DNA of 64,000 bases from Gammaproteobacteria bacterium (GTDB lineage: Bacteria; Pseudomonadota; Gammaproteobacteria; DSM-19610): positions 186,001 through 250,000 of the forward strand of contig JAPHQV010000015.1 in assembly GCA_026197075.1 (NCBI GenBank), read 5' to 3'. Of the stretch, positions 18,698 through 21,259 are shown one piece after another. A program made the translations under genes and the position numbers. The notes beneath the pieces were generated by a model. The model searched no databases. It was not told the origin of the DNA and saw nothing but the letters and a program-made list of their open reading frames with translations. The number at the start of each line of letters is the position of its first letter. Position 1 is the stretch's first letter.

Positions 18698-19789
18698 TCA
18701 TTCGACCGCTACGGCGAAATCCCCCAGGCGCACCGGCAGGCGTTTGGCGCCCCAGTCACCGGGACGCGCCTCGAACACCCCGGGCAAGGGGGTGCCACAG
18801 AAACCACATGTTCCCTCCTCGGTCAGATTCCACTCCGTCAGGACGTACCAGTCACGACCGATCAGCTTGTGGCCACAGTGGTGGCAATAGGTGCTGCCTC
18901 CCTCCGCATCGTGGACATTGCCCGTATAGGCATAGCGCACCCCCTGCTCCATGGCGATACGGCGGGCCTGGCTCAGGGTGGCCGCCGGAGTGGATGCCAC
19001 ATCGCGCATCTTCCAGTCGGGATGAAAGGCGGTGAAGTGCATGGGCACATCGGGGCCCAGGTGATCCACCACCCAGCGGCTCATCTCCTCGATTTCGCCG
19101 GGCGAATCATTTTCTCCGGGTATGAGCAGGGTGGTGAGTTCAAACCAGACCGAGGTCTCGTGTTTCAGATAAACGAGGGTATCCAGCACCGGCTGCAAAT
19201 GGCCCCCGGTGATCTTCCAGTAGAAACGTTCCGTGAAGGCCTTCAGGTCCACATTGGCGGCATCCATGTGGGCGAAGAACTCCCGGGCCGGTTCGGGACT
19301 GATGTACCCGGCGGTCACCGCCACCGATTTCACGTTCACGGCATGACAGGCATCGGCCACCGCGTCGGCGTATTCCATGAAGATGACCGGGTCGTTATAG
19401 GTATAGGCGACACTGCGGCAGCCGAGCCGGCTGGCGGTGCGCGCCAGCAGCTCCGGCGAGGCGGCATCGGCCAGGGTATCGATTTCCCGTGACTTGCTGA
19501 TGTCCCAGTTCTGGCAGAACTTGCAGGCCAGGTTGCAGCCGGCCGTACCGAAGGACAGGCTGGGCGTGCCGGGCAGAAAATGATTGAGGGGTTTCTTTTC
19601 GATGGGATCGACACAAAACCCGCTGGAACGTCCGAAGCTGGTCATCACCACCTTGCCATCCTGGTTGGCGCGCACGAAACACATGCCCCGCTGTCCCTCG
19701 TGCAACTTGCAGAACCGCGGGCACAGATCGCATTGCACCCGGCCATCCCCCAGATCGTGCCAGTAACGGGTATCGACGGTGGTTTCCAT
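18698..19789 (-). CDS. amrS: AmmeMemoRadiSam system radical SAM enzyme
   Basis: Radical SAM enzyme of unknown reaction, conserved with an AMMECR1-like and a MEMO1-like partner, both encoded divergently next door. 363 aa from ATG 19789 (GGGAGG 7 nt upstream). It has the CX3CX2C cluster GCNLACKFCQNW (Cys85, 89, 92), an N-terminal Cys set (C20, C23, C27, C37) and a C-terminal zinc-ribbon-like pair (YCHHC 301-305, CGFC 328-331). The TIM-barrel strands include DLKAFTERFY and VWFELTTLLIPGEND. Substrate unknown; a role in modifying a protein or small molecule is inferred from the family only. Confidence 0.93.
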   Translation of the reverse strand: METTVDTRYWHDLGDGRVQCDLCPRFCKLHEGQRGMCFVRANQDGKVVMTSFGRSSGFCVDPIEKKPLNHFLPGTPSLSFGTAGCNLACKFCQNWDISKSREIDTLADAASPELLARTASRLGCRSVAYTYNDPVIFMEYADAVADACHAVNVKSVAVTAGYISPEPAREFFAHMDAANVDLKAFTERFYWKITGGHLQPVLDTLVYLKHETSVWFELTTLLIPGENDSPGEIEEMSRWVVDHLGPDVPMHFTAFHPDWKMRDVASTPAATLSQARRIAMEQGVRYAYTGNVHDAEGGSTYCHHCGHKLIGRDWYVLTEWNLTEEGTCGFCGTPLPGVFEARPGDWGAKRLPVRLGDFAVAVE

Positions 19790-19896
19790 GGCGCTGCCTC
19801 CCGGTTGCATGTCCTGTAATCATATACCCGGATGACGGGCTTTGCGTCCTTGCAATCCGGCCGGAAGAGGCAAGAATAGATCTAGAGGTGGACATT

Positions 19897-20679
19897 ATGA
19901 ACATTCGCAATCCGGCCGTAGCGGGCATGTTCTATCCCGGGGAAGCCGGGGAACTGCACCGCCAGGTGCAGGGTTACCTGCGGGAGGCCGCCAGCGCGCC
20001 GCACAATCCCAAGGCCATCATCGTGCCCCACGCGGGCTATATCTACTCCGGACCGGTGGCTGCCACGGCCTACGCCAGCCTGGTGCCACGCCGCGGACGG
20101 ATCGAGCGAGTGGTCCTGCTGGGCCCCTCGCACCGGGTACCCCTGGAAGGCATGGCGGTGAGCAGTGTCGAATTCTTTGCCACCCCCCTGGGCGATATCC
20201 CCATCGATCGCGAGGCAGTGAAGCACCTGCTCACCCTGCCCCAGGTGAAGGTCATGGACGAGGCCCATCTGCTGGAGCACAGCCTGGAGGTGCAGCTGCC
20301 CTTCCTGCAGGAAATCCTGGGGGAATTCCGGTTGATCCCTCTCGTGGTGGGCGACAGTTCACCCGATGAAGTGGCCGAGGTCCTGGAGCTGCTCTGGGGG
20401 GGCGAGGAAACCCTGCTGGTCATCAGCTCCGATCTGAGCCATTACCAGGACTACGAAACCGCCCGGCGCCTGGACCGGGCCACCTCCGATGCCATCGAGG
20501 CCCTCGCCCCGCAACGCATTCACTACGACGACGCCTGTGGCCGCAACCCTGTCAATGGCCTGCTGCTGGCGGCGCGGCGGCGCGGCCTGCACGCCAGCAC
20601 CCTGGACTTGCGCAACTCCGGTGACACCGCCGGCCCCCGCGACCGGGTGGTGGGTTACGGTGCCTATGTCTTCGAATGA
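19897..20679 (+). CDS. amrB: AmmeMemoRadiSam system protein B (MEMO1 family)
   Basis: MEMO1/extradiol-dioxygenase-fold protein, 260 aa. Start ATG 19897 is preferred over GTG 19888 because AGAGGTGG lies 6 nt upstream. Candidate metal ligands equivalent to those reported for human MEMO1 are kept: His45 in VPHAGYIYSG, His79 in GPSHRVPL, Cys214 in DACGRNPVNG; His182 is in SSDLSHY. It probably binds copper or iron, with no known enzymatic reaction. Divergent from amrS (about 107 nt shared promoter region), overlapping amrA by 14 nt. Confidence 0.93.
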   Translation: MNIRNPAVAGMFYPGEAGELHRQVQGYLREAASAPHNPKAIIVPHAGYIYSGPVAATAYASLVPRRGRIERVVLLGPSHRVPLEGMAVSSVEFFATPLGDIPIDREAVKHLLTLPQVKVMDEAHLLEHSLEVQLPFLQEILGEFRLIPLVVGDSSPDEVAEVLELLWGGEETLLVISSDLSHYQDYETARRLDRATSDAIEALAPQRIHYDDACGRNPVNGLLLAARRRGLHASTLDLRNSGDTAGPRDRVVGYGAYVFE

Positions 20680-21259
20680 GGGGGGACTGGGCCCCAATGA
20701 ACGAGGCATGCTGCTGCACATCGCCGCCGACTCCATCCATACGGGGCTGCGCGAAGGACATGCCTTGTCGCCAGACCTGGAGACACTGCCCGAGGCCCTG
20801 CAACAAAAGACCGCCTGCTTCGTGACCCTGCACCACACGGGACGGCTGCGTGGCTGCATCGGCAGCCTCGAGCCCCGCGAGTCCCTGGCGCAAAACGTGG
20901 CGGATAACGCCTTCAACGCGGCCTTTCGAGACCCCCGCTTCCCGGAACTGACCGCGATCGAACTGGCCGACCTGGAACTGGATATCTCGGTACTGGGCAC
21001 CCCGCATGTCATGTCCTTCCGTGACGAAGAGGACCTCGTCGCCCAGCTGCGACCGGGACGGGACGGCCTGATCCTGGAGGTGGGCGGGCGGCGCGGAACC
21101 TTCCTGCCTTCGGTATGGGACAGCCTGCCGGATGCGGGGGAATTTCTGCGCCAATTGAAGCAGAAAGCAGGGCTACCGGCGGAGTTCTGGTCCGCGGACA
21201 TCCGGGTGATGCGCTACGTCACCGAATCCTTCGGCGCCCGCTTCGTGGACGTGGAATAG
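20666..21259 (+). CDS. amrA: AmmeMemoRadiSam system protein A (AMMECR1 family)
   Basis: 197-aa AMMECR1-domain protein with the invariant LRGCIG motif (61-66) whose Cys is a candidate catalytic or modified residue. Other family segments are NVADNAFNAAFRDPRFPEL, LELDISVLGTP and GGRRGTFLPSVWDSLPD. The start ATG 20666 lies inside amrB and gives a family-like N-terminus; ATG 20708 with GAGG is the alternative. Together with amrB and amrS it completes the three-gene system. Biochemical role unknown. Confidence 0.92.
   Translation: MSSNEGGLGPNERGMLLHIAADSIHTGLREGHALSPDLETLPEALQQKTACFVTLHHTGRLRGCIGSLEPRESLAQNVADNAFNAAFRDPRFPELTAIELADLELDISVLGTPHVMSFRDEEDLVAQLRPGRDGLILEVGGRRGTFLPSVWDSLPDAGEFLRQLKQKAGLPAEFWSADIRVMRYVTESFGARFVDVE

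Follow-up and report, generated by a model that had tools for sequence, protein, structure and literature searches.

The window analysed here, a stretch of 64,000 nucleotides, carries amrS on the minus strand, divergent from an amrB-amrA pair on the plus strand, and all three open reading frames are intact (Table 1). This divergent order is a common one in the class. amrB starts at ATG 19897 with AGGTGG upstream, amrA starts at ATG 20666, and the two genes overlap by 14 nt (20666-20679). The longer amrS frame begins at ATG 19810 and encodes 370 aa. Judged from the sequence, ATG 19789 (METTVD..., GGGAGG upstream) is the better start, and it numbers the radical SAM cysteines 85, 89 and 92, in agreement with the residues 85-92 given in the first-pass annotation. 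The layout with its 14-nt overlap, the two additional AmrS cysteine sets and the LRGCIG motif, all described there, were recovered as well.

Table 1. Features of the amr locus in window coordinates.
Feature	Position	Strand	Details and basis
amrS, AmmeMemoRadiSam radical SAM enzyme	18698..19789	-	363 aa from ATG 19789; TIGR04337 644 bits
CX3CX2C radical SAM cluster motif, C85/C89/C92 of AmrS	19514..19537	-	sequence; invariant in 16-sequence alignment
AmrS N-terminal CX2CX3CX9C set, residues 20/23/27/37	19679..19732	-	invariant in 16-sequence alignment
AmrS C-terminal zinc-ribbon-like CX2C...CX2C, residues 302/305/328/331	18797..18886	-	invariant in 16-sequence alignment
amrB, MEMO1-family protein, 260 aa	19897..20679	+	TIGR04336 280 bits; PF01875; MEMO1 3bcz/7kq8 E 1.5e-27
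AmrB His45 codon, predicted Fe ligand (= MEMO1 H49)	20029..20031	+	phmmer alignment; 87/87 homologues
AmrB His79 codon, predicted Fe ligand (= MEMO1 H81)	20131..20133	+	phmmer alignment; 87/87 homologues
AmrB Cys214 codon, predicted Fe ligand (= MEMO1 C244)	20536..20538	+	phmmer alignment; 87/87 homologues
amrA, AMMECR1-family protein, 197 aa	20666..21259	+	TIGR04335 199 bits; PF01871; 1vaj/1zq7/1wsc
AmrA LRGCIG motif, residues 61-66 (Cys64)	20846..20863	+	sequence; G63 75/75, C64 74/75

The three products score far above the NCBIfam cut-offs (644 bits against 220 for AmrS, 280 against 26 for AmrB, 199 against 99 for AmrA), which excludes a chance pattern, and the genome of the window contains one full copy of each gene. 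The families concerned, TIGR04335 (A), TIGR04336 (B) and TIGR04337 (rS), are all of the type hypothetical equivalog and already carry the name AmmeMemoRadiSam. Hence the earlier designation of the locus as an undescribed system does not hold: the window copy is an ordinary intact member of an already named system and not a new kind of system. PMC7159879 also cites "recently-described Memo-Ammecr1 systems", a 2019 description. Our literature searches on the AmmeMemoRadiSam trio found no paper assigning it a function, in line with the earlier remark that no reaction had been attributed to it.

The ligand sets, which had been described as intact, are under strong constraint. Among 87 homologues, the AmrB ligands His45, His79 and Cys214 and the second-sphere residues Asp179, His182 and Glu131 are invariant (87/87), and the second-sphere His128 is found in 86. 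AmrA Gly63 is kept in 75 of 75 aligned homologues and Cys64 in 74, and the three AmrS cysteine sets are invariant among 16 aligned members of the class. AmrB thus carries the predicted 2-His-1-Cys ligand set of the MEMO family; as had been proposed, its three residues align by phmmer with H49, H81 and C244 of human MEMO1, through which iron is bound in the crystal (PMC11081632). The human AMMECR1 disease variant G177D falls within the LRGCIG motif (PMC5502304).

The co-occurrence test used 140 class genomes, in most cases a single one per family. AmrA and AmrB were detected in an identical set of 77 genomes, of which 75 also had AmrS above its cut-off (Fisher p 3e-36, in a test blind to shared ancestry). 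Of the two genomes that fall short, G026 has only a 32-residue AmrS fragment and in G085 none was found; a single genome (G052) has an AmrS-like match alone, which is a paralogue beside yggX. According to the coordinates, 59 of the 75 complete genomes have the trio together on a single contig; in the other 16 the three genes are partly or wholly separated, in some cases on short contigs, and S-A, S-B and B-A pairs all occur. That the set is kept even where its genes are apart was counted in favour of one functional unit. The first-pass annotation had taken a scattered or degraded trio in relatives as an argument against its reading: scattering is indeed observed in these 16 genomes, but degradation is not, the ligands being kept and single losses almost absent. 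G042 has two tandem AMMECR1 genes after amrB (L146:2197-3504), the second of which fits the family better (154 against 68 bits).

In a second sample, of 120 genomes, AmrA and AmrB shared an identical set of 54, and 53 of those had AmrS (p 7e-32); this sample was drawn from the window's own phylum and overlaps the first (G186 and G050 give identical coordinates), and it is therefore not independent. Among 20 further AmrS-carrying genomes, whose record titles span many phyla, AmrA was matched in 17, and in 16 of those the score passed the cut-off. In the control genomes, AmrB and AmrA exceeded their cut-offs in Thermotoga maritima, Methanocaldococcus jannaschii, Sulfolobus acidocaldarius and Methanosarcina acetivorans. 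AmrS did so in four control genomes, which we read as the same four, the tally being without genome names. Haloferax volcanii gave an AmrA match and neither AmrB nor AmrS. Co-occurrence and control matches support the earlier statement that the three families recur jointly across bacteria and archaea, and it is practically certain that the trio is a complete AmmeMemoRadiSam system inherited as a set.

The clustering of neighbouring genes drew on the window, 80 named genome loci, 40 regions of the class and 14 regions around paralogues, 135 loci in all. The gene calls, restricted to open reading frames of at least 60 aa, were made with homology support because antisense frames in GC-rich DNA mislead calls by the longest frame. 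No fourth gene or short peptide gene of at least 60 aa recurs beside the trio in about 121 trio-type loci. The most frequent neighbours there were FliK (14), FlhB-like (13), GYF-like (11), ParA (10), MogA (10) and CheW (9) proteins, the names FlhB-like, ParA and CheW having been assigned by reading the neighbour sequences. The GYF-like, FliK, FlhB-like, ParA and CheW genes look like shared gammaproteobacterial gene order and not like partners. A fourth constant partner, for which the first-pass annotation had named the GYF-like protein, mogA or a kinase, was thus sought by neighbourhood statistics and only minority neighbours emerged.

MogA deserves separate consideration. It exceeds its cut-off in 21 of 77 trio genomes against 6 of 63 others (p 0.01), and 9 of the 77 have mogA no more than 5 kb from amr genes, as would be expected if the trio belonged to a larger neighbourhood pathway that also took in the molybdenum-cofactor gene mogA, the GYF-like protein or the kinase. 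However, 56 of the 77 trio genomes have no MogA over the cut-off, which largely refutes a constant link, and the GYF-like, FliK, FlhB-like, ParA and CheW genes accompany the trio in only 9-14 of the ~121 loci. Such a pathway is therefore highly improbable, and the MogA link is recurrent, not constant. A third step or a further partner may be encoded elsewhere in the genome. None of the three proteins matched any PADLOC family of anti-phage defence.

The absence of a recurring peptide gene weakens a model with a dedicated peptide substrate, whereas a widespread protein or a metabolite would fit equally well. Burroughs et al. (2019, J Biol Chem) are reported to have proposed, from gene context, the modification of a nucleotide base or an isoprenoid. 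A common metabolite of this kind would need no dedicated partner gene nearby, but no base-modification or isoprenoid gene recurs beside the trio in the ~121 loci either. The citation in PMC7159879 supports the existence of a Memo-Ammecr1 description, and we consider a small or nucleic substrate rather unlikely. For a polypeptide, hints come from the fold of AmrS, which is near that of the PFL-activating enzyme, from RiPP recognition elements (RRE domains) fused to Memo-like proteins (PMC12710340) and from peptide-processing conflict systems, in which a related radical SAM domain occurs (PMC7159879). A polypeptide is hence a possible, still doubtful, substrate of AmrS.

Natural AmrB-AmrA fusions were found nine times among the fetched loci, in several lineages. 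The AlphaFold model of one of them has a mean pLDDT of 96.0 and a pTM of 0.89, and Foldseek retrieved MEMO1 7kq8 (TMt 0.80) and AMMECR1 1vaj (TMt 0.78) for its two halves, followed at lower ranks by LigB-type dioxygenases (aminophenol, DOPA and gallate). Since unfixed domains of this size would be expected to score well below a pTM of 0.89, a defined interface is likely. AmrA and AmrB therefore probably form a stable complex, on the strength of an interface predicted within a covalent fusion.

The resemblance to dioxygenases raises the question of whether AmrB could be a genuine extradiol dioxygenase of class III (LigB-type), opening aromatic rings with O2. Its fold is that of the aminophenol, DOPA and gallate enzymes, the two metal histidines and a second-sphere histidine are kept, and the window's genome encodes haem-copper oxidases, so that O2 is encountered. 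The third ligand, however, is Cys instead of Glu in 87 of 87 homologues, and AmrB lacks the 2-His-1-Glu/Asp set of the class III enzymes. Peptide deformylase and LuxS hold Fe(II) with two His and one Cys and perform non-oxidative chemistry; the 2-His-1-Cys set alone is thus no pointer to a dioxygenase. Dioxygenase activity was, moreover, not found for MEMO1 (PMC11081632), and all three families match in strict anaerobes (T. maritima, M. jannaschii and M. acetivorans). AMMECR1 tops the listed anaerobe markers, with 50.7% of anaerobes against 3.4% of aerobes (PMC13386939). Within the class, no tie to the anaerobic ribonucleotide reductase NrdD was seen (6 of 77 trio genomes, 5 of 63 others). As the trio families occur both in strict anaerobes and in an oxidase-bearing genome, their chemistry cannot need O2 everywhere. 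Taken together, a ring-opening dioxygenase is very unlikely, and O2-independent Fe(II) chemistry at AmrA-AmrB is the somewhat favoured interpretation.

The AlphaFold model of AmrS is less confident (pLDDT 72.7, and under 50 in the cluster loop at residues 83-105). Its nearest fold is the PFL-activating enzyme 3cb8, which acts on a peptide substrate. This proximity, visible in both profile and model, would suit an activase that modifies AmrA or AmrB, by a radical or a derived cofactor, the matured AmrA-AmrB being the enzyme proper; so would the near-absolute co-occurrence of the trio and the duplication of the whole set in several genomes, where a second AmrS stands beside a second AmrB-AmrA fusion. 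On the other side, AmrS reaches only 48 bits with the PFLA model (cut-off 231.75) and passes no activase cut-off, and H. volcanii has AmrA without AmrB or AmrS. Animals keep MEMO1 and AMMECR1 without AmrS; the pair can dispense with AmrS there, which also counts against an activase. We consider this role distinctly unlikely. No glycyl-radical enzyme family was found as a recurring neighbour of the trio in the ~121 loci.

Several AmrS relatives were encountered outside the trio. A first paralogue (L114-L123, e.g. L118:6324-9550) scores 228 bits against the TIGR04337 cut-off of 220 and has no Memo or AMMECR1 gene near it. Among the 14 paralogue regions fetched, 10 have it next to yggX (Fe(2+) trafficking); mutY, an L-amino-acid-ligase-like ATP-grasp gene and an A-type Fe-S carrier are often beside it as well. 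It is something other than AmmeMemoRadiSam, but automatic annotation will give it that name. The operon that holds a second paralogue, of 461-487 aa (L126:6592-7977 and L127:5805-7268; 314 bits in L127), also encodes indolepyruvate ferredoxin oxidoreductase-like subunits and a PLP-type enzyme.

A divergent second copy of the entire set occurs in L178-L184 (e.g. L178:2941-5775), with AmrS2 near an AmrB-AmrA fusion. The second-copy AmrS keeps the N-terminal CX2CX3CX9C set and its ribbon reads C-D-C-C. Selenocysteine was considered at the single in-frame TGA of several second AmrS copies and rejected: the codon directly following ...GVWT is an ordinary stop, and the sequence beyond it shows no conservation. 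Fusions in L178-L184 and L189-L191 begin with an N-terminal hydrophobic segment, signal-peptide- or anchor-like, suggesting from their sequences that this second Memo-AMMECR1 fusion enzyme may be exported. In the second copies that were read, the Cys214 equivalent is kept in all but two. In L192 and L193, His79 is replaced by Leu or Thr and the Cys214 equivalent is lost; AmrA Cys64 is replaced by Ser in L192, and the AmrA part of L193 is poorly aligned.

As a tentative overall reading, which may well need revision, AmrS, AmrA and AmrB would work as one functional unit. AmrS would reductively cleave SAM, and the resulting 5'-deoxyadenosyl radical would act on a substrate, with a polypeptide as the likeliest candidate. 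A second, O2-independent step on the same substrate, which could be of Lewis-acid, hydrolytic, isomerising or redox type, would fall to AmrA and AmrB, presumably joined in a stable complex whose Fe(II) site has 2-His-1-Cys ligands. A more speculative extension, which we hold with little confidence, is that AmrA-AmrB completes a modification initiated by AmrS, is chemically nearer to peptide deformylase and LuxS than to dioxygenases, has MEMO1 and AMMECR1 as its descendants, and exists in some genomes in a second, exported or membrane-anchored version. MEMO1 and AMMECR1 have human disease links, and a co-inherited bacterial set with invariant ligands, in hosts that can be grown and mutated, offers a practical route to their biochemical activity.

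Compared with known systems, the window trio agrees with AmmeMemoRadiSam in that all three products exceed the curated cut-offs and the genes are adjacent, and no difference was found. With human MEMO1 (7kq8, 3bcz), AmrB has in common the fold and, by alignment, the iron ligands; the two are distant, with 28% identity between MEMO1 and the AmrB half of a natural AmrB-AmrA fusion. AmrA has the fold and the LRGCIG motif of the AMMECR1 family (1vaj, 1zq7, 1wsc and human AMMECR1), whereas the extensions vary in archaeal and human members. The class III LigB-type extradiol dioxygenases are similar to AmrB in fold and differ from it by Glu in place of Cys and by the occurrence of the AmrB family in strict anaerobes. 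Finally, AmrS has the radical SAM fold and CX3CX2C motif of the PFL-activating enzyme (3cb8), but differs from it by the extra N-terminal four-Cys set, the C-terminal ribbon and scores below the activase cut-offs.
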